The position numbers and the translations under genes are program-made. A stretch of DNA of 20,035 bases from a virus: positions 1-20,035 of the IMG/VR virus record IMGVR_UViG_3300027522_000059; one strand, written 5' to 3'. Numbering within the stretch: the stretch's first letter is position 1; each line of letters begins with the position of its first letter. Below are positions 2,071-13,078 of this stretch, piece after piece. Under the pieces are notes generated by a model that searched no databases, was not told where the DNA came from, and saw only the letters and a list, made by a program, of their open reading frames with translations.

Positions 2071-5000
2071 ATGAACCCATTATTAAAATTTTTAGCCGCA
2101 GCAAGATCCCTTGCAAGTCAAGGTTTTAAAAAAGAACAAATTTATGATTTTGCTGTACGTGAGTTTGGAGAAGTAAATTCACTTATGCAAAAACAAATTG
2201 ATAATATTTTTAAACCTCAAAAACCTATAACACCAAAAGATCCTGATTTTGATAACACTGTTCAAAAACTTGGTATCGATGATCAAGGAAAACCTTTTAA
2301 TCCAAAAGATCCTTTAAATAATATGGCAACTGGCGGACGTGCAGGCTATGTAGAAGGTGGACCAATTCATCCAAGATTAGGAGAACTATCTTCAGGAGTT
2401 TCTTCTGCCGAAGAACAACTACAACAAATTAATCAATCACTACAAACAGCTGAAACTAGTTTGGGTGAATCTGGACCAGGTGGTGCGGGTTCCGTGACTC
2501 CTTCTGTTAATGGATATGAATCTAGCGGCAGTAGTTTATATAATGAAAGTCCAGCAGGAGAAGTTAGTAATCCTTACCAGGCTCCGGTTGGAATGAATCC
2601 TTTTGATAATCCAAAAATAACAAATTTAAACCAACTACCTCCTGGACAACCACAAAAAGTTGCCGAACCTTATGTTCCCGATCAATACACGCCCGGTAAT
2701 TCCAGCGAACCCTTACAACAAACTGCAGATCCTGTAAGACAAGCTTACGATAAAGAAGTACAAGCTGCAAAAAAACAACGAGCAGAAGGTTTTATGGGTA
2801 GAGTAGTTTTACCTGGAGAAAGGAGTTTTGAAGATTTTTCAAGTGGTTATAATTATATGCAAGACAAACCTAATTCATTAGGTCAATTACAATCTTTAGG
2901 TGGAGGCCTAGGAGGATTACTTGGTGAAGGTGGCGGAAATTCAAATGCACCACCAGACAGAGAAACTGACATGATGCAGAATGATCCAAGATTTCAAAAT
3001 TTAACAACAGATCAATATAAAGGTAAAGACACCATGTTTTTAAGTGGCATGGGACAACAAAGCACAATCTTACCTGGCGGAAACTCACCCGAACTTCCTT
3101 ACCCAGCATTAGAAGTATCAGGTATGCAGTACGCCAAAGGCGGACGTGCAGGTTATTACATGGGCGGTCAAGCAATGGTGGGCGAAGATCTGTCAGACGT
3201 TGGCCATGGTTCGGATTCCTTGATGGCAAGAAACATGCAACTTTCTCCAGGAAGCCAAGCTACAACTTCCACAGGATTAAATTATTTATTAGGTCAAGAC
3301 AACGACACAGTTAGAGTTCCTTATAGTAAAGGTAAACTTGCTAAGAAAACCGTGGACGAAGGACGAAGAGGATTTATGAAAGCTGCTGGCGCAGCGGGCG
3401 CTGGTATAGCCGCACTTAAAACAGGATTATTAGGATTTGGAGAAAAAGTAGCTCCGGTTGCTAAAGAAGCTGTTGAAGCAGTTAGTAATACTGCTGGACA
3501 AGCTCCAGCGTACTTTTTTAAGTTAGTAGATAAAATTAGAAAACTTGGTGACGACGCACCAAGACTTGCAGTAAAAGATAGAGAAAAAGTTACAACATAT
3601 AAAGAATATCAATTAACTGAAGATGTTACAACCGGGGAACAAACAATTCAAAGAATGAAAGTAACTGACCCTGATTCAGCAAGTTATTATGGTCAACCTC
3701 TAACTGAAGAAACTTATATGAATTATAAACCTGGAAAAGGTCTGGCTGATGAAACGACTAAAGGTAAAACTCCAATAGATGAATATGAAGAAGGCACTGC
3801 TTATATAAGAAGTGATCGTATGAATGCGGGAGAAATTGTTGAGGAGTCATCTGGTGTTTCTGATGAAATATATGAAGAGGTGGGTGAAGCTATACCGGAA
3901 GTTATTAGAAAGACAAAAGCAGATGGTGGTAGAATTGGTTTTAGTAAAGGTAAACTTGCAACAGAAGGAATTCCTGCTTTAATCAATAAAATAAAATCTT
4001 TATTTGGTAACGATGCAATTACAACTGCAGACAAACTTCCTATACCACAGAAAACACTAGACAGAGCTATGTTTAACAAATTTGATGACAGAAACCCTGA
4101 TCCAAACCGTTTGTTAAATGATGCAGAAATAGAAGATTACGAAATGGAATTAGGGGATAGTGAAACTTGGATGATGGATGGAACTATTGGAGAAGCAGAA
4201 AAAGCTTTAATAGATCAAAAAGAATATATGGCTAATATTATGAGAATGAAAGAAAGAGGAGACTTTGGTGATTTTTCACCTTCAAAATTAGATAATGTAA
4301 ATGATAATCAAATTGAAGAAGCTGTTCAAAATATTTTCCCTACAGGAGATACTAAACTTGATGCAGAGATGGCTGCAGAATCTTTAGTAGAACTTAACCC
4401 TCAAATTTTTGGAGATGTACTTTTAGATGATCTAGACGATATAACTAGATCTAAAATTTATGGTGCAGTGTATGACAGGCTTTCAAATAATATGGCTAAA
4501 ATGATAAAAGACAAAAGAAATTTACCTAATCCAACTAAAACTTTAGAGGGAATTAAAAAAACTGGAACAATAGATATTTCAGATCCAGATATAGCAGATG
4601 AGTTTGCAAGATTTATGAAAGAGAAAGACCCTAAGGGATATAAAGATATGGAACAAAAAATTCAATTAGAATCTTTTGACCCTAAAACTAAAGGTCGTAA
4701 AGGTAATTCACAGGGTGGTAGAATTGGCATGTTATCTGGAGGTGGTATTTTAAAAGCAGTGTTAAAAAATTCAGCTGATGCAAAAGGAATGACCGTTAGA
4801 GATTTTATAATGGCCATGAACCCTAAATCAATTCCTTCAAACATTAAAAATCTTATATCAAAAGTAGACCTTGAACAACTTCAAGCTGGTTACAAATCTT
4901 ACTATGAAAATATTGCAGATATGATGAAAACAAGATTTGATTTTCAAAAAAATGTTGAAATTGGTAAAGGAACTCCCGTAGAATCATTGTTTAAAAATTT

Positions 5001-5151
5001 AGAAAAAACTATGGATGAACAAAGTTATGTTCCAAAAAACGTAACACAAGATGATATTGCTAAAACAGAATTAATGATTAAAAATAAATTTTTTGGTAAA
5101 GGCCGTAAAGCAAACGCAACTGGTGGCCTAGCTACTATGTTAGGGGAATAA
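2071..5151 (+). CDS. Giant motif-bearing phage protein A (1026 aa), probable virion or ejection protein
   Basis: I do not recognise a named family. It begins with an amphipathic helix (MNPLLKFLAAARSL). Residues 100-350 are low-complexity, rich in G, S, P, Q and N, with a G-rich run near 275-290. Residues 418-455 hold YSKGKL and then an internal twin-arginine-like string RRGFMK (432-437) followed by an Ala/Gly-rich hydrophobic stretch. Residues 475-1026 look folded and helical. Short motifs recur: GGRAGY (88-93 and 357-362), GGRIGF fused to SKGKL (619-629), GGRIGM (882-887), and GGLATMLGE at the C-terminus (1018-1026). It lies six bases after terminase and overlaps the next gene by one base (TAATG). 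Its size, position and mix of disordered and Ala/Gly-rich segments suggest an internal or ejected virion protein; this is inference. No catalytic motif was seen. Confidence 0.85.
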   Translation: MNPLLKFLAAARSLASQGFKKEQIYDFAVREFGEVNSLMQKQIDNIFKPQKPITPKDPDFDNTVQKLGIDDQGKPFNPKDPLNNMATGGRAGYVEGGPIHPRLGELSSGVSSAEEQLQQINQSLQTAETSLGESGPGGAGSVTPSVNGYESSGSSLYNESPAGEVSNPYQAPVGMNPFDNPKITNLNQLPPGQPQKVAEPYVPDQYTPGNSSEPLQQTADPVRQAYDKEVQAAKKQRAEGFMGRVVLPGERSFEDFSSGYNYMQDKPNSLGQLQSLGGGLGGLLGEGGGNSNAPPDRETDMMQNDPRFQNLTTDQYKGKDTMFLSGMGQQSTILPGGNSPELPYPALEVSGMQYAKGGRAGYYMGGQAMVGEDLSDVGHGSDSLMARNMQLSPGSQATTSTGLNYLLGQDNDTVRVPYSKGKLAKKTVDEGRRGFMKAAGAAGAGIAALKTGLLGFGEKVAPVAKEAVEAVSNTAGQAPAYFFKLVDKIRKLGDDAPRLAVKDREKVTTYKEYQLTEDVTTGEQTIQRMKVTDPDSASYYGQPLTEETYMNYKPGKGLADETTKGKTPIDEYEEGTAYIRSDRMNAGEIVEESSGVSDEIYEEVGEAIPEVIRKTKADGGRIGFSKGKLATEGIPALINKIKSLFGNDAITTADKLPIPQKTLDRAMFNKFDDRNPDPNRLLNDAEIEDYEMELGDSETWMMDGTIGEAEKALIDQKEYMANIMRMKERGDFGDFSPSKLDNVNDNQIEEAVQNIFPTGDTKLDAEMAAESLVELNPQIFGDVLLDDLDDITRSKIYGAVYDRLSNNMAKMIKDKRNLPNPTKTLEGIKKTGTIDISDPDIADEFARFMKEKDPKGYKDMEQKIQLESFDPKTKGRKGNSQGGRIGMLSGGGILKAVLKNSADAKGMTVRDFIMAMNPKSIPSNIKNLISKVDLEQLQAGYKSYYENIADMMKTRFDFQKNVEIGKGTPVESLFKNLEKTMDEQSYVPKNVTQDDIAKTELMIKNKFFGKGRKANATGGLATMLGE

Positions 5152-7682
5152 TGGAATACGATATAGAATCTATTCTAGAAAAATACGAGGACGACTATAA
5201 CCCTGGTCCAAGGCCCATGGTCCAAGAACCACGGAACATGTATAGTAAAGGTAAGTTAGTGAAAGAAACAGTAGAAACGTTAGCTTCTAAAATTTTTAAA
5301 CCAAAAACAGAATTAGATGCTTTGGAACCAGCGACTGTTAAACCTAGTATCCTTAGACGAGAAGCTGCCCCATTAGATCTAAGTCAAATTAACTCTATTA
5401 TGAAAAATAAAGAGTTCGAACAAGCATGGAAGAATTATAAAATATCAATTAAAGATGTTGGACGTAGAAAATACGACAAAGATCAGTTCTTTGAAATGTG
5501 GGCTAGAGAGAACATGGCTGAAGGCGGACGAACTGGTTACTTTTTAGGAGGACCAGCAATTAAAGCTATCTTTAAAAATAAAATTCCAGGCATAACTTAC
5601 TATCCTCCAAACTCACCCGGTAAAACAACCAAAGATAGTATTGCTCTTTTAACTAGAACTACTGATGAGTCTGGCAAAAGAATCAGTAATTCTAAAACGT
5701 TTAATGTAAATACAGCAACTAAAAAAGAAGTTGATGATTATTTAAAACAACAAGAAACACAATTAGAAGGTAAAGTTCAAAAAAAAGGAGGAGACGTAAA
5801 CGAAATAAGACAGGCTTACACTAAATCTAAAATCGGTTTTACGGAGGAATTAATTAAATGGCTAGATACAAATGCGAGTAATCCTAAATATGATACTCCT
5901 GAAAAATTAATAGCTGGAGCTAAAAAAGTATTTAATCAACCTAAATATACAGAAGCACCCAATAAAGTAGAAAAGAATAAAGTTTTCTTTAGTAAAGATA
6001 AAGGTTTTGTAATTCCTAAAGAATATGAATTCTATGGGGCAAAAGTAGATAGTAGAAATCCTGATAAAGTCCAAAAAGACATGGCAATGATTTCTTTGTT
6101 AAAATCTGACAACCCGGCTTTCAAAGGTAAAAAAGACACTTTAATGAAATTTTTTAACAGAGATCCAGATTCCCCGAAACCCGATTTATCAAAAGAAGAA
6201 GACAGCTTTTTAAAAAACTTCAGTAAAAATTTTATAAGATCAGGAGCAGGTGGTGCGGGTACTGTTAAAGATGTAGCTAAAGGTTCTGTTATTTTAAGAT
6301 ATTTAAAAAATGAAGGTGCTAATTTTGATAACAAATTAAATAACTGGAATGAAATTAGAAGATTGCAAACAGATATTCAAAAAGAATTACAACTAACAGA
6401 TCTAAGTCCTAATAGAATTGATTTTTTAAATAAAAGTTTAGTCGCTGTTAAAGATAAACAAAGAAATGTGTCCGAAGCTTTAAGAAAAGAGTATCCTGAT
6501 TTATTCACAGGTAAAGAAGGAGATATATCGGGTGCTTTGGTTCAAGAGCATAAAGTTGCAAGAGCACTCGGAGACAAAAGACTTAAAGGAGAAGTAGGTA
6601 AGAGTTTTATTCCTTCTACTTATTTAGCAAGAGCAGAATTCACTCCAGCTTTTTTTAACTTACAAAAATTAAAAGATTTTGATACTCCTTTTATGTCACT
6701 TGTGGAAAAATATAATAATGCTCCTACAAAACAAACAAAGCTAGCTGTTAAAAAACAGATCGAGACACTAAAAAATACATTTAACAAAAATTCAGGTGGA
6801 TATCTAAATGATGTAGATATTAACTACGGAACAAAAACAGTTAAGATAAAAGATAAAACTCCAGAGATATACAAAACTTCAAAAGAAGATACGTATGCTC
6901 AAATACTAAAAAATGTAAAACACAGTAATACTTATTTTAAAAACAAAGGAATGGATGATCGTATTCTTCAAGGAGATAAATTTAACAGATTCCAAAGAGA
7001 TTTAAAAAATAGAATTAACGCAAATCAAAATTATAAAAGTTTAGCAATAGGTGTTCCAACAGTTGCAGTAGCAACACAATTTTTATCTGGGGAAGCAACC
7101 GCTGAAATAAAACCACAAGGCTCACCCGGACAACTAAATCCAGAAACAGAAAAAACTTTTGCAGAAAGAAACCCGAAAACTACACAGGCTGCTGGATCAG
7201 CCGTGGTGGGAGGAACTGTTTTAAAACAAAAACCTGTTAGAGACGTGATTACAAAAGGTTTAGGAAAAATTTTTAGAGGTCTTGGAACAAATTTAGCTGG
7301 TAGTGGTTTTGCTGCTACACAAATATACAATAATTTAAAAGAAGGTAAAGGAGTATATGAATCTGTAAAAGATCCTATGGTTGGTGTAGAATTAATGTTT
7401 CCATCTTTATTTAAAGAAAATATTTCTAAAATTACAAAAAATAAAGCGATTCAAAAAGCTTTAAGTGGATTTGGAGCTGGAAAATATTTAAATCCGATAG
7501 GTGCAACCATATTAGCAGGAGATGCTCTTAGTAAAAATAAACCAGATTCAGAATCTCTTTTTATAAAAGACATGATAAAAGGACCTGATTATTTTAAAGA
7601 AAAAAATAATGATTACTATGAACAAGGTGAGCATTATGATGATGTCGGACTAGCCGGATTAATGAAAAAATATTATGACTAA
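5151..7682 (+). CDS. Giant motif-bearing phage protein B (843 aa), probable virion or ejection protein
   Basis: Unrecognised family, sharing short peptides with the preceding 1026-aa protein. It has YSKGKL at 31-36, GGRTGY followed by FLGGPAI at 125-137, and SGAGGAGTV at 364-372, which matches SGPGGAGSV in its neighbour. The middle (about 140-620) is lysine-rich and helical. The last 220 residues contain several Gly/Ala-rich hydrophobic stretches (about 630-645, 677-691, 707-727 and 781-797) that could insert in or lie on a membrane, separated by polar linkers, and an acidic, tyrosine-rich tail. The ATG overlaps the upstream stop (TAATG), implying translational coupling. A role in DNA ejection or as a minor capsid or neck component is inferred from size, membrane-active-looking C-terminus and location before the portal. 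It is not a recognisable lysozyme, protease or tail fibre. Confidence 0.85.
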   Translation: MEYDIESILEKYEDDYNPGPRPMVQEPRNMYSKGKLVKETVETLASKIFKPKTELDALEPATVKPSILRREAAPLDLSQINSIMKNKEFEQAWKNYKISIKDVGRRKYDKDQFFEMWARENMAEGGRTGYFLGGPAIKAIFKNKIPGITYYPPNSPGKTTKDSIALLTRTTDESGKRISNSKTFNVNTATKKEVDDYLKQQETQLEGKVQKKGGDVNEIRQAYTKSKIGFTEELIKWLDTNASNPKYDTPEKLIAGAKKVFNQPKYTEAPNKVEKNKVFFSKDKGFVIPKEYEFYGAKVDSRNPDKVQKDMAMISLLKSDNPAFKGKKDTLMKFFNRDPDSPKPDLSKEEDSFLKNFSKNFIRSGAGGAGTVKDVAKGSVILRYLKNEGANFDNKLNNWNEIRRLQTDIQKELQLTDLSPNRIDFLNKSLVAVKDKQRNVSEALRKEYPDLFTGKEGDISGALVQEHKVARALGDKRLKGEVGKSFIPSTYLARAEFTPAFFNLQKLKDFDTPFMSLVEKYNNAPTKQTKLAVKKQIETLKNTFNKNSGGYLNDVDINYGTKTVKIKDKTPEIYKTSKEDTYAQILKNVKHSNTYFKNKGMDDRILQGDKFNRFQRDLKNRINANQNYKSLAIGVPTVAVATQFLSGEATAEIKPQGSPGQLNPETEKTFAERNPKTTQAAGSAVVGGTVLKQKPVRDVITKGLGKIFRGLGTNLAGSGFAATQIYNNLKEGKGVYESVKDPMVGVELMFPSLFKENISKITKNKAIQKALSGFGAGKYLNPIGATILAGDALSKNKPDSESLFIKDMIKGPDYFKEKNNDYYEQGEHYDDVGLAGLMKKYYD

Positions 7683-7827
7683 AGACAATCCAACACTTGT
7701 AAAAAACATGAAACATGTTAAATGGGATAGTATTCCACCTTTGAAAGGACCGAATCCTAAAGGGTTGATTAAAGACAAGAAACAAGATAAACCAATACAG
7801 GAGAATAAATATGGCAGATATAGATAA
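7675..7827 (+). CDS. Small basic protein (50 aa) bridging to portal
   Basis: ATG at 7675 overlaps the end of the 843-aa gene by 8 bases and the stop at 7825-7827 lies 17 bases inside the portal gene, so it fills the gap exactly. The product is lysine-rich with a central KWDSIPPLKGPNPKGL block (about 16-31). I recall similar KWD-IPP-GPNPQGL mini-proteins near portals in marine phages, but could not check. An alternative start is the internal ATG at 7708. No function can be assigned. The portal Shine-Dalgarno lies within it. Confidence 0.6.
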   Translation: MTKDNPTLVKNMKHVKWDSIPPLKGPNPKGLIKDKKQDKPIQENKYGRYR

Positions 7828-10297
7828 ATCTCTTCCCAATGTTGCAAGACCCGAAGATGAAGTTGTAGAAGATATTAACATTGAAGAGGTTGAAGAATTA
7901 AAAGGTCCCGTTGAAATTACAGATGAAGAAGATGGTGGAGCAACTATCGACTTTGATCCCAATGCTGTAAACATACCACAAGATGGCGGCGATCACTTTG
8001 CAAATTTAAACGAATTACTTCCTGAAGACGATACTGATGAAATAGGTGACCAGTTACAGAATGACTACATGGAATATAAAACTTCTCGTAAAGAATGGGA
8101 AAGAGCTTATATCACCGGCCTAGATTTATTAGGCTTTAAATACCTAAACAGAACGGAACCTTTTCAAGGAGCAAGTGGTGCAACTCACCCGGTACTCGCT
8201 GAAGCAGTTACTCAGTTTCAATCTTTAGCTTACAAAGAATTACTACCTGCCGATGGTCCAGTTAGAACCATGGTTATGGGTGCAAGTGACCCGCAAAAAG
8301 AAATGCAGGCGCAAAGAGTTAAAAATTTTATGAACTATCAAATCATGGATCAGATGAAAGAATATGAACCTGAGTTTGATCAAATGTTATTTTACCTTCC
8401 ATTATCAGGTTCAACATTTAAAAAAATTTATTACGACGATTTATTGGGACGAGCAGTTTCTAAGTTTGTTCCAGCAGATGACCTTGTTGTTCCGTACACG
8501 GCTACTTCATTAGACGATGCGGAAGCAGTCATCCATGTTTTAAAAGTTTCTGAAAACGAACTAAGAAAACAAATGGTTTCCGGTTTCTATTCTGACATAG
8601 AACTTACAAAACCAACTGGAACTATTACAAATGAATTAGATGAAAAAGAAAGAGAAGTTGAAGGAGTTTCCAAAACGCAAAGAACAGATCCTTTATACAC
8701 AATTCTAGAATGCCACGTTAATCTAGACTTAGAAGGTTTTGAAGATATGGGTGCCGACGGAGAACCCACTGGAATAAAATTACCTTACATCGTTACAGTA
8801 GAAGAAGGTAGTAGAAAAGTTTTGTCTATTAGACGAAACTTTGCGCAAAATGATCCAAAAAAAATAAAAATTAATTACTTTGTCCATTTCAAATTTCTGC
8901 CTGGACTAGGTTTTTATGGTTTAGGATTAATTCATATGATTGGCGGTTTGAGTCGTACTGCAACTGCGGCTCTCCGTCAGTTATTAGATGCTGGAACTTT
9001 ATCAAATTTACCAGCCGGATTTAAACAAAGAGGTGTTAGAGTTAAAGATGATGCTACACCAATACAACCAGGAGAATTTAAAGATGTTGATACTCCAGGG
9101 GGTAATCTAAAAGATGCTTTCGTATTCTTACCGTACAAAGAACCGTCGCAAACATTATTACAGCTGATGGGGATTGTAGTCCAAGCAGGACAAAGATTCG
9201 CATCAATTGCTGACATGCAGGTTGGTGATGGGAACCAACAGGCCGCTGTTGGTACAACTGTAGCTCTTTTAGAACGTGGTTCAAGAGTCATGTCAGCGAT
9301 CCATAAAAGATTGTATGTCGGTCTGAAACAAGAATTTAAATTACTTGCTAAAATATTTGGCGAGTCATTACCACCAGAATATCCTTACGATGTTATTGGT
9401 GCTGCAAGAAATGTTAAAGCAACTGATTTTGATGACAAAGTAGATGTCTTACCTGTTGCAGATCCAAACATTTTTTCAATGTCTCAAAGAATTGGTTTAG
9501 CTCAAGAACAATTAAGATTAGCTACATCTAATCCTGAAATGCATAATATGTACTCAGCTTACAGAAGTATGTATGAAGCTATTGGAATAAAAGATATTGA
9601 TAGAATTTTACCACCACCTCCACCGGAGCAACCAAAAGATCCGGCGATCGAACATATTGATGCAATGGGTGGAAAACAGTTTAAAGCATTTCCAGGACAA
9701 GATCATAGAGCGCATGTGACAGCTCACTTAAACTTTATGGCTAGTAATTTTGTTAGAAATAATCCTAGTATTACTGCCGCGTTAGAAAAAAATATCATGG
9801 AACACATATCATTGATGTCACAAGAACAAGTTGAACTAGAGTTCCAGCAAGAAATGCAAATGTTGCCACAAATGCAACAAGCTGCAACCCAAAACCCACA
9901 AGTTAAACAACAGGTTGAACAGATCTCACAAAAAATTGAGTCTAGAAAAGCTATTTTAATTGCGGACATGATGGAAGAGTTTATGAAGGAAGAAAAAGCT
10001 ATTACAAATCAATTTGATAATGATCCATTATTAAAACTTAAAGAAAGAGAAGTTGACCTTAAAGCTATGGAAGCAGAACGTAAGTTAAAAGAAGATGAAG
10101 CTAGAATTAATCTTGACAGAGCTAAGATGGTACAAGCTAAAGAACTTAGTGAACAGAAACTAGAACAGAATGAAGATTTAGCTAATTTAAGAGCTGATAC
10201 AGCTATGGCTAAGTCAGAAATGTCTGCTGAAGTCAAATTAACCTCAGATGCTATGAAGGCTAGAGACGTAAATGTCTTGAAAGGCCCTAGAAATTAG
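7811..10297 (+). CDS. Portal protein (P22-like)
   Basis: An 828-aa portal, the dodecameric ring at the packaging vertex through which DNA enters and leaves. The first 75 residues are strongly acidic and probably disordered. The region after that (EYKTSRKEWERAYITGLDLLGF, then GATHPVLAEAV and LLPADGPVRT) is typical of P22-type portals. Residues 340-500 contain the LGFYGLGLIHMIGGLSRTA and ALLERGSRVMSA helices expected around the channel stem. From about 715 to 820 is a long charged coiled coil rich in K, E and A, comparable to the C-terminal barrel of the P22 portal. P22's own portal is shorter (about 725 aa), so this is a long version. The start is supported by CAGGAG at 7798-7803. The family assignment is from sequence recognition, not a search. 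Confidence 0.92.
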   Translation: MADIDKSLPNVARPEDEVVEDINIEEVEELKGPVEITDEEDGGATIDFDPNAVNIPQDGGDHFANLNELLPEDDTDEIGDQLQNDYMEYKTSRKEWERAYITGLDLLGFKYLNRTEPFQGASGATHPVLAEAVTQFQSLAYKELLPADGPVRTMVMGASDPQKEMQAQRVKNFMNYQIMDQMKEYEPEFDQMLFYLPLSGSTFKKIYYDDLLGRAVSKFVPADDLVVPYTATSLDDAEAVIHVLKVSENELRKQMVSGFYSDIELTKPTGTITNELDEKEREVEGVSKTQRTDPLYTILECHVNLDLEGFEDMGADGEPTGIKLPYIVTVEEGSRKVLSIRRNFAQNDPKKIKINYFVHFKFLPGLGFYGLGLIHMIGGLSRTATAALRQLLDAGTLSNLPAGFKQRGVRVKDDATPIQPGEFKDVDTPGGNLKDAFVFLPYKEPSQTLLQLMGIVVQAGQRFASIADMQVGDGNQQAAVGTTVALLERGSRVMSAIHKRLYVGLKQEFKLLAKIFGESLPPEYPYDVIGAARNVKATDFDDKVDVLPVADPNIFSMSQRIGLAQEQLRLATSNPEMHNMYSAYRSMYEAIGIKDIDRILPPPPPEQPKDPAIEHIDAMGGKQFKAFPGQDHRAHVTAHLNFMASNFVRNNPSITAALEKNIMEHISLMSQEQVELEFQQEMQMLPQMQQAATQNPQVKQQVEQISQKIESRKAILIADMMEEFMKEEKAITNQFDNDPLLKLKEREVDLKAMEAERKLKEDEARINLDRAKMVQAKELSEQKLEQNEDLANLRADTAMAKSEMSAEVKLTSDAMKARDVNVLKGPRN

Positions 10298-11577: not shown

Positions 11578-11775
11578 ATGCCGGGAAAAGAAATTAAAGG
11601 AAAAAGTAAAATAGCAACTTATAGAAGTGGCGGAAGAGCTGGTTACAAAACTGGTAAATCTGTTAAAGAAAGTAAATTTCCAGATCACTCCGGTGATGGT
11701 AAAATTACTAAAAAAGATATTTTAATGGAAAAAGGAGTTATTCCTAAAACTAAAAAAATGACAAGGAAAGCATAA
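11578..11775 (+). CDS. GGRAGY and EF-hand-like mini-protein (65 aa)
   Basis: A 65-aa, very basic protein with an AAAGGAGA ribosome binding site. It carries GGRAGY at 18-23 followed by KTGKSVKES, matching the GGRIGF-SKGKL-ATEG block of the 1026-aa protein. Residues 36-47 (DHSGDGKITKKD) fit the 12-residue EF-hand calcium loop: acidic or polar ligands at positions 1, 3, 5 and 12, glycine at 6 and isoleucine at 8. The following ILMEKGV is a plausible exit helix. There is only one loop, so binding would need dimerisation or could resemble a dockerin-type half site. It overlaps the next gene by one base. Function unknown; calcium binding is inferred. Confidence 0.72.
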   Translation: MPGKEIKGKSKIATYRSGGRAGYKTGKSVKESKFPDHSGDGKITKKDILMEKGVIPKTKKMTRKA

Positions 11776-11921: not shown

Positions 11922-12034
11922 TGGATAAAAATAAAAAAAATAAAATTAAAAAAGTATCTAAAGCTTTGGTAAAAGCATCTAAGTTACATGCAGGTCAAGC
12001 TAAGGTATTAAAAAAAATAATAAAGAAAAAATAA
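11921..12034 (+). CDS. Lysine-rich 37-aa protein
   Basis: A 37-residue ORF whose ATG overlaps the previous stop and whose stop overlaps the next ATG, both as TAATG. The sequence is a single probable amphipathic helix, MDKNKKNKIKKVSKALVKAS then KLHAGQAKVLKKIIKKK, with 17 lysines. Exact fit into the coupled chain is the main evidence that it is translated, and I recall KASKLHAGQAK-like strings in other marine phage mini-proteins. It could bind DNA or membranes. Confidence 0.55.
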   Translation: MDKNKKNKIKKVSKALVKASKLHAGQAKVLKKIIKKK

Positions 12035-12273
12035 TGGCTACTGCAGCTTGGACTAGAAAAGAAGGTAAATCTAAATCAGGTGGACTGAACGCTAAAGGTA
12101 GAGCAAGTTATAAGGGTGGTACTCTTAAAGCGCCTACTAAATCTAAAACAAGTTCTAGACGTAAATCGTTTTGTGCAAGAATGAGTGGAATGAAAAAGAA
12201 ACTTACTTCAGCAAAAACAGCAAGAGATCCTAATTCAAGAATAAACAAATCTCTTCGTAAATGGGATTGTTAG
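12034..12273 (+). CDS. DUF6321-like protein (79 aa)
   Basis: A 79-aa basic protein with three blocks I recognise from DUF6321 proteins of phages: AAWTRKEGKSKSGGLNAKGR (4-23), a SRRKSFCARMSGMKKKL block (41-57), and a C-terminal DPNSRINKSLRKWDC (65-79). The family is common in aquatic phages and has no established function. Its ATG overlaps the previous stop. Cys47 and Cys79 are the only cysteines. Confidence 0.85.
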   Translation: MATAAWTRKEGKSKSGGLNAKGRASYKGGTLKAPTKSKTSSRRKSFCARMSGMKKKLTSAKTARDPNSRINKSLRKWDC

Positions 12274-12450: not shown

Positions 12451-12687
12451 ATGGAACCAGAACAAGTATTAAACAAACTAAGAAGAGTTTTAGACAAGAG
12501 ACTAACCTCACTTTCATTATCTGTTACCTCAGGAGGGGTTGACAGTATGGATACTTACAAGTATATTATAGGACAAATAAATGCATTGGAATCAGTGCGC
12601 CAGGAAATCATTAGCCTGCTCAACGATAAGGAAGAAAATGAAAAAAACGGAACAGTCATCGACCTCAACCGAGGTACCAAAAACTAA
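12451..12687 (+). CDS. Small helical protein (78 aa)
   Basis: A 78-aa protein that looks like a helical hairpin: residues 3-25 and 33-58 form two amphipathic helices (LNKLRRVLDKRL and YKYIIGQINALESVRQEIISLL) joined by a SGGVDSMDT turn, with a charged tail. This SGSV-(D/S)-MEEYK...GQI-ALE-x-(V/A)-R-EI-LL pattern is one I recall from several marine phage genomes near scaffold and capsid genes. It has a good AAAGGA site and overlaps the start of the GroES-like gene by 50 bases. Function unknown. Confidence 0.75.
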   Translation: MEPEQVLNKLRRVLDKRLTSLSLSVTSGGVDSMDTYKYIIGQINALESVRQEIISLLNDKEENEKNGTVIDLNRGTKN

Positions 12688-13078
12688 ATCAGCGTTATTA
12701 GATAAATACGAAAAAGAACCTAAAAAAGAAGTCACTCAAGAGACCACTAAACTTCCCATGCCTACGGGTTGGAGAATGTTAGTACTACCTTTTAGAATGA
12801 ATGAAAAAACTAAAGGTGGAGTTTTATTAGGAACAGAAACAATTGATAGACAACAAGTTGGATCGCAATGCGGAAACGTAATTGCTATGGGACCTGATTG
12901 TTACAATGACCCAAAAAGATTCAACGATGGTCCGTGGTGCAAGGTGGGAGACTGGGTGGTCTTCGCACGTTATGCAGGGTCAAGAATAGAAATTGATGGC
13001 GGAGAAGTCCGTTTATTAAATGACGATGAGATACTAGCAACCGTACAGGATCCAACAGATATCCTGCACAAATATTAA
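12638..13078 (+). CDS. GroES-like co-chaperonin (Cpn10 fold)
   Basis: A 146-aa protein with a 40-residue charged N-terminal extension and a Cpn10 barrel (about 41-139). It aligns by eye with bacterial GroES: GWRMLVLPF at the first strand, the mobile loop NEKTKGGVLLGTETI (55-69) with GG-VLL where GroES has GG-IVL, a GNVIAMGP strand, a VGDWVVFARYAG strand, and the NDDEILATV end matching GroES SESDILAIV. The mobile loop is what contacts GroEL, so it probably caps host GroEL and adapts it to fold phage capsid protein, as T4 gp31 does; this role is inferred from position just before scaffold and major capsid genes. No GroEL is in the window. ATG 12638 is chosen for its AAGGAAG site; an in-frame ATG at 12581 lies deeper in the upstream gene. 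Confidence 0.92.
   Translation: MKKTEQSSTSTEVPKTKSALLDKYEKEPKKEVTQETTKLPMPTGWRMLVLPFRMNEKTKGGVLLGTETIDRQQVGSQCGNVIAMGPDCYNDPKRFNDGPWCKVGDWVVFARYAGSRIEIDGGEVRLLNDDEILATVQDPTDILHKY

Follow-up and report, generated by a model that had tools for sequence, protein, structure and literature searches.

Gene order and motif copies between TerL and the portal gene

The DNA analysed here, referred to as the window, is a single IMG/VR virus record of 20,035 bases and probably represents a genome fragment. TerL lies at 509-2065, and two large genes on the plus strand separate it from the portal gene. Gene A (2071-5151) begins directly after TerL and encodes an accessory modular protein of 1026 aa; gene B (5151-7682), which overlaps A by one base at 5151, encodes a second one of 843 aa. 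An SU10-type portal gene (7811-10297) lies just downstream of B and is followed by the start of the head genes. The portal protein of the window is 67%, 62%, and 52% identical to those of HTVC027P (MN698241), 023Pt_psg01, and HTVC023P, respectively. The first of these values, obtained with a Pelagibacter phage, groups the window with the HTVC027P/HTVC023P-type phages of SAR11. In addition, the homology of portal and TerL and the order TerL, slot, portal, GroES, capsid match those of HTVC027P/HTVC023P-type pelagiphages. The source of the window is an uncultured relative of SAR11-infecting phages. Contigs from other IMG/VR samples (L003, L020, L021, and L023) are 100% identical to the A and/or B proteins of the window over the matched range. 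Further downstream, ORF 12581-13078 is GroES-like by eye and by position, and a co-chaperone GroES is annotated at its place in HTVC027P, HTVC023P, and psg01.

Five copies of a GGRxG-aromatic motif lie in A and B, all on the plus strand. Joint 1 (GGRAGY, encoded by GGC GGA CGT GCA GGC TAT; 2332-2349, A residue 88) stands at the end of module A1, and the DNA of joint 2 (GGRAGY, GGC GGA CGT GCA GGT TAT; 3139-3156, A residue 357) is identical to it at 17 of 18 positions. Joint 3 (GGRIGF, GGT GGT AGA ATT GGT TTT; 3925-3942, A residue 619) marks the end of a beta-rich domain and is followed by joint 4 (GGRIGM, GGT GGT AGA ATT GGC ATG; 4714-4731, A residue 882), and joint 5 (GGRTGY, GGC GGA CGA ACT GGT TAC; 5523-5540, B residue 125) is a homology breakpoint within the window. 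A degenerate relative of the motif, GGLATM (within ATGGLATMLGE; 5122-5139, plus strand, A residue 1018), is found at the C-terminus of A. A preliminary description of this DNA had located the five copies and GGLATM at exactly these positions and had rightly remarked on the codons, Arg being encoded by CGT in joints 1 and 2, by CGA in joint 5, and by AGA in joints 3 and 4. When the residues of A and B were shuffled 20,000 times, the mean number of copies was 0.006 and the maximum was 1 versus the 5 observed, so that the motif is far above chance. A sixth copy, outside the span that had been described, occurs as GGRAGY (11629-11646, plus strand) in a 65-aa ORF at 11578-11775, upstream of the EF-hand-like DHSGDGKITKKD. 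In small post-portal proteins of relatives that resemble this ORF, the motif is joined to various tails.

In 121 loci, the slot between TerL and portal measured 103 to 7912 nt; two large ORFs are its usual content, and slots with one, with none, or with more than two also occur. Two large genes with the motif fill it in each of HTVC027P and 023Pt_psg01, a single 201-aa gene without the motif in HTVC023P, and one PcfJ-like gene in DSL-LC04, while TerL adjoins the portal gene with no large gene between them in Roseobacter CRP-902, Caulobacter GB2A, and Planktothrix Pag-Yong1. Since the slot is empty or differently filled in relatives, A and B are accessory. Across all fetched contigs, which are related sequences and not independent, the density of the motif was 1.73 per 1000 aa in TerL-portal ORFs of at least 150 aa and 0.4-0.7 per 1000 aa after the portal, where it occurs in small proteins without assigned function; 0 copies were found in portal ORFs (~149,000 aa) and in TerL and earlier ORFs (67,000 aa). 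Individual proteins carry 0 to 5 copies, and many B proteins carry none; in the portal-anchored sample, the motif is present in 19 of 43 complete B genes.

Searches of window A and B against Pfam, PHROGs, and NCBIfam returned nothing except a weak Tat match, and neither protein matched adhesin families. With the structural models of both proteins, Foldseek gave no PDB match at E <=0.001, and VIA-align against the PDB reached best Z scores of 6.1 and 7.8, on parts of the models, which supported no family. Some B bodies showed DNA-binding or nuclease-like Pfam matches (HTH_7, HNH_repeat, HTH_32, and Ntox15), which were weak, rare, and mostly below curated cut-offs; Ntox15 was weakly matched in 3 of 53 (best E 4.5e-4) and in the window not at all, and the matches as a whole are too few to assign a function. 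Two candidate identities for B were rejected: for an HNH nuclease near residue 470 (H...TPxxFN, a pattern present in 13 sequences), the model shows helices at residues 500-548 and the fold searches listed no nuclease, and an AP2/Arm-like reading of residues 135-205, drawn from the order of strands and helices, found no fold match. A/B-type genes are not mentioned in the searched passages of papers that deal with the transcriptomes or the uncultivated genomes of relatives.

Predicted linkers, homology boundaries, and joint DNA

Overall confidence is low in the AlphaFold models of the two proteins (mean pLDDT 67 and 61), which were built from shallow alignments, but folded parts can be made out clearly. 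In the model of A 345-890, pLDDT falls to ~33, ~55, and ~40 at the copies at 357, 619, and 882, with values of 75-98 in the adjoining parts. In B, residues 124-132 have pLDDT below 50 and separate the helical head (residues 77-123; 5379-5519, plus strand) from the next folded part. Four of the five copies (357, 619, 882, and B 125) are accordingly placed in predicted low-confidence linkers, which agrees with the earlier suggestion of modular units with conserved joints. Between joints 3 and 4, residues ~706-869 of A (4186-4677, plus strand) are predicted by AlphaFold to form a mostly helical module.

Gene A also contains an internal twin-arginine-like signal, RRGFMK (residues 432-437), followed by a hydrophobic stretch (RRGFMKAAGAAGAGIAALKTGLLG; 3364-3435, plus strand), and this signal is conserved in most relatives. 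The pattern [KR]RxF[LM]K with a hydrophobic stretch was detected in 141 of 1523 ORFs of at least 100 aa, 120 of which also carry the GGRxG-aromatic motif; in 93 instances the motif stands 2-36 residues upstream of the pattern, mostly 11-15. Of 84 relatives, 46 matched PF10518 (TAT_signal; best 5.6e-6) and 28 matched TIGR01409, and the window's own copy falls under both curated cut-offs. A profile search of solved structures yielded only three marginal matches, two of which are Tat substrates (formate dehydrogenase and the NapA precursor). In the annotated frame, the signal lies at residue 432 and not at the N-terminus as expected of a Tat substrate. Since a Met directly precedes xRR in many relatives (GMTRRTFLK), an internal start is conceivable. 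The Tat-like segment is followed by a conserved beta-rich domain (A ~474-620; 3490-3930, plus strand), mostly with pLDDT 75-98, for which fold searches gave no convincing known fold and BFVD gave one uncharacterised viral relative (E 2e-9). A close-relative scan of 84,980 bacterial and archaeal genomes found no relatives of the Tat-like domain, and nothing direct was found in the literature on twin-arginine signals with phage ejection proteins or on boundary sequences.

The ends of homology between relatives cluster at the motif. With the motif masked in 273 nonredundant proteins, 2096 of 5966 homology ends lay within 20 aa of it, compared with 667 ± 82 for rotated positions, and 1363 lay near it in both partners, compared with 73 ± 19. 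The excess is about three times random placement, and 18 times with both partners scored, for homology ends that come from related sequences and are not independent; the result was alike without masking. In window A, masked homology ends at 74-85 and restarts at 99 around copy 88, starts at 367-373 after copy 357, ends at 603-610 before copy 619, and ends at 879 and restarts at 892 around copy 882. The strongest homology boundary of window A is 428-432, the start of the Tat-like segment, and no joint exceeds it. The head of window B is common to L009 (87%) and L004 (61%) up to ARENMA[EQ]GGR, after which the three proteins diverge; the body of B (5553-7682, plus strand) matches that of L022 instead and shows no relation to the bodies that follow this head in L009 and L004. 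Modules also differ in order, since the module that comes after the Tat-like domain in the window sits before that domain in L006, L008, L183, and L217. Unlike the window, HTVC027P carries the Tat-like domain in its second gene, gp42, with a B-type head at the start and the Tat-like domain at the end.

Some further variation was seen in these proteins and nearby. A second motif copy lies between two cysteines in some B proteins (L183, L150, L157, L186, and L193; e.g. KCKVNLKADGGRIGFANSIECIQDGL). The tail of B in most relatives reads AGGGIAG...GP..QGLxxLxKR, of which window B (7600-7682) keeps only a part (GLAGLMKKYYD). At 12034-12273, the window encodes a 79-aa DUF6321 protein (Pfam E 7e-19) that PHROGs places at the C-terminus of larger phage proteins, which vary in length; this again suggests module exchange.

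At the DNA level, the 18-mer GGTGGACGGATCGGGTTT was found in 102 IMG/VR contigs, once per contig and always in frame GGRIGF. This set was chosen by exact match, and thus its internal uniformity is no evidence by itself. The portal gene lies downstream of the gene with the 18-mer in all 91 contigs that reach the portal, within 185 nt except in L026. Comparison of the 98 B genes that contain the exact 18-mer gave 145 pairs with homology upstream of it (75% or more over 60 nt) and unrelated sequence downstream, and 23 pairs with the reverse; identity steps from ~0.9 to ~0.3 across the joint. The 38 head clusters and 61 body clusters of 18-mer B genes occur in 73 combinations. The limits of single alignments fall at or next to the joint itself, as in L038/L061 (95%) and L111/L116 (84% over 642 nt), which are alike up to its last base, and in L095/L068 (81% over 1.9 kb) and L032/L075 (78% over 2.4 kb), in which homology starts one base before the joint and at its first base, respectively.

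The codons of the joint are atypical as well. In the head joints of the portal-anchored sample, which was not chosen by the motif, Arg is encoded by CGN in 15 of 15 (background 21%) and by CGG in 6 of 15 (background 2%). In the wider collection, CGN encodes the Arg in 74% of copies before the Tat-like segment and in 53% of the others, against a background of 20%. On the other hand, in some members the joint is common as protein only and its codons are ordinary, and a degenerate scan found many synonymous versions of the motif, indicating that the amino acids are under constraint too.

Module exchange and alternative readings

We consider it likely that [A][DEQ]GGRxG[FYL]xxG joins interchangeable modules of the accessory TerL-portal proteins of pelagiphage-type podoviruses, acting both as a linker and as a crossover point. 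In the protein, it is a short glycine-rich linker predicted to lie outside the folded modules; since its Arg and aromatic residue are kept, it does more than space the modules apart. In the DNA, the joint is a short, atypically coded stretch common to otherwise unrelated genes, with modules exchanged at a breakpoint there. The short shared DNA may mediate the exchange through recombination or annealing, a process that would also keep the joint DNA uniform. Recombination at the joint is read here from its footprint, namely the breakpoints, the head-body combinations, the reordering of modules, and the codon signature. Since many B genes are without the motif, exchange presumably happens elsewhere too, or the motif has been lost.

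The preliminary description had interpreted a near-constant step of ~800 bp as modular units of ~265 residues with conserved joints. The step is real in the window, where its evenness corresponds to ~5e-6 for five uniform random points (a post hoc figure), but it is absent from the family: the 126 steps in 88 proteins with at least two copies are irregular, ranging from ~20 to 580 residues with a mode of 40-60, only 9 of them measure 250-275 residues, and no second protein with four evenly spaced copies was found among the 88. Irregular spacing in homologues had itself been named as refuting evidence, and it counts against periodicity. Since the motif exceeds the shuffles and its steps are irregular in relatives, we accept the motif as real but not the period; the ~800-bp regularity is a local coincidence of three module lengths and the head of B. 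The joints of the earlier reading are upheld by linkers, breakpoints, reordered modules, and codons, but a 265-residue unit as a rule is not. It is therefore highly improbable that the proteins are built periodically from ~265-residue repeats, or that a single ancestral protein was divided into A and B, although single-gene versions of the slot exist (1366 aa in L138, 735 aa in L126, and 866 aa in L228). The segments between copies appear to be different modules, each with its own set of homologues, and their order is permuted among relatives. Slots with no gene, one gene, or two genes, together with modules moved between genes, fit repeated gain and exchange better than the splitting of a single ancestor that had been proposed. 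It is scarcely credible that metagenome assembly produced the head-body combinations as chimeras, at a short word that the contigs share. Metagenome contigs do make up almost all of the sequences, but the k-mers usual in assembly are longer than 18 bp, one and the same head-body pair was met in several samples (L025, L034, L069, and L112), and the complete genome of the cultured HTVC027P has rearranged modules of the same kinds.

The motif could instead be mainly a processing or docking site, for a protease or for a capsid or portal partner, with swapping as a by-product; we regard this reading, which is not exclusive of a joint, as possible though doubtful. It would account for the retention of Arg and the aromatic residue where a bare linker needs only glycines, for the recurrence of the motif in A, B, and small post-portal proteins and not in TerL or portal, and for the protein-level constraint shown by the synonymous versions. 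A cut at the copy that often stands 11-15 residues before the Tat-like RR in A would leave a Tat-like N-terminus. However, a range of 0 to 5 copies per protein, with many B proteins having none, is awkward for an essential cut, the codon signature is unexplained by a purely protein-level role, and no protease was identified. A dedicated enzyme, such as a site-specific recombinase or a homing-type endonuclease that targets the joint DNA and drives exchange, is unlikely. The presence of exactly one 18-mer at one locus in each of 102 contigs and the weak Pfam matches in a few bodies speak for it, but the 20-kb window shows no recombinase, there is no evident dyad symmetry in the 18-mer, the joint serves as breakpoint in several DNA versions, and the matches are rare and mostly under curated cut-offs, with no nuclease from fold searches. 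Selection for a translation pause between domains, with atypical codons slowing the ribosome and thereby conserving the DNA, is very unlikely: the rare CGG, ATC, and GGG codons do lie exactly at the predicted domain boundary, but most copies use CGT, a moderately used codon, many use AGA, and a pause does not require one exact 18-mer in unrelated contexts.

As for what the modular proteins do, our guess from gene position and from the Tat-like and hydrophobic segments is that the virion carries A and B and delivers them into the host. A more specific version, in which the slot is a shuffled cargo locus of virion-packaged modules that are cleaved at GGRxGF, one of them being directed to the inner membrane by a now N-terminal Tat signal, appears quite improbable.

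Significance and relation to known systems

SAR11-type phages are among the most abundant marine viruses, and most genes of their structural region have no assigned role. With a recognisable joint, large uncharacterised proteins can be divided into modules for cataloguing, comparison, and separate expression. At this locus, which distant relatives leave empty and others have shuffled, module exchange tied to a short piece of shared DNA can be studied as it occurs in nature, and cultured relatives are available for testing (HTVC027P on HTCC1062). The internal twin-arginine-like signal, unexpected beside the motif, is a concrete and testable lead on the role of the protein. The gene A family resembles Tat signal peptides in [KR]RxF[LM]K with its hydrophobic stretch but differs from them in that the signal is internal (residue 432) and not N-terminal, and export is putative.

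In polymorphic toxins, a junction motif precedes variable ends, and conserved parts are joined to many unrelated segments. The proteins described here likewise have conserved parts that a fixed, short motif connects to many unrelated segments. Unlike in those toxins, matches to toxin domains are weak, and B has a conserved C-terminal end, not a variable one.

A further parallel is provided by the T-even gp38 tail-fibre adhesins, in which, according to the passages of PMC12529663 that cite Tetart et al. 1998 and Trojet et al. 2011, conserved glycine-rich motifs separate hypervariable segments and inter-motif recombination swaps them. As far as those passages describe gp38, the likeness is a conserved glycine-rich motif flanked by segments that are unrelated between relatives. 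The proteins considered here differ from it in being large TerL-portal accessory proteins not classed as adhesins, with large and often unrelated modules, and their motif is GGRxG-aromatic and occurs in several genes of one phage. By analogy, the joint may work like the gp38 motifs but in unrelated, larger proteins, which are not of the periodic repeat type.
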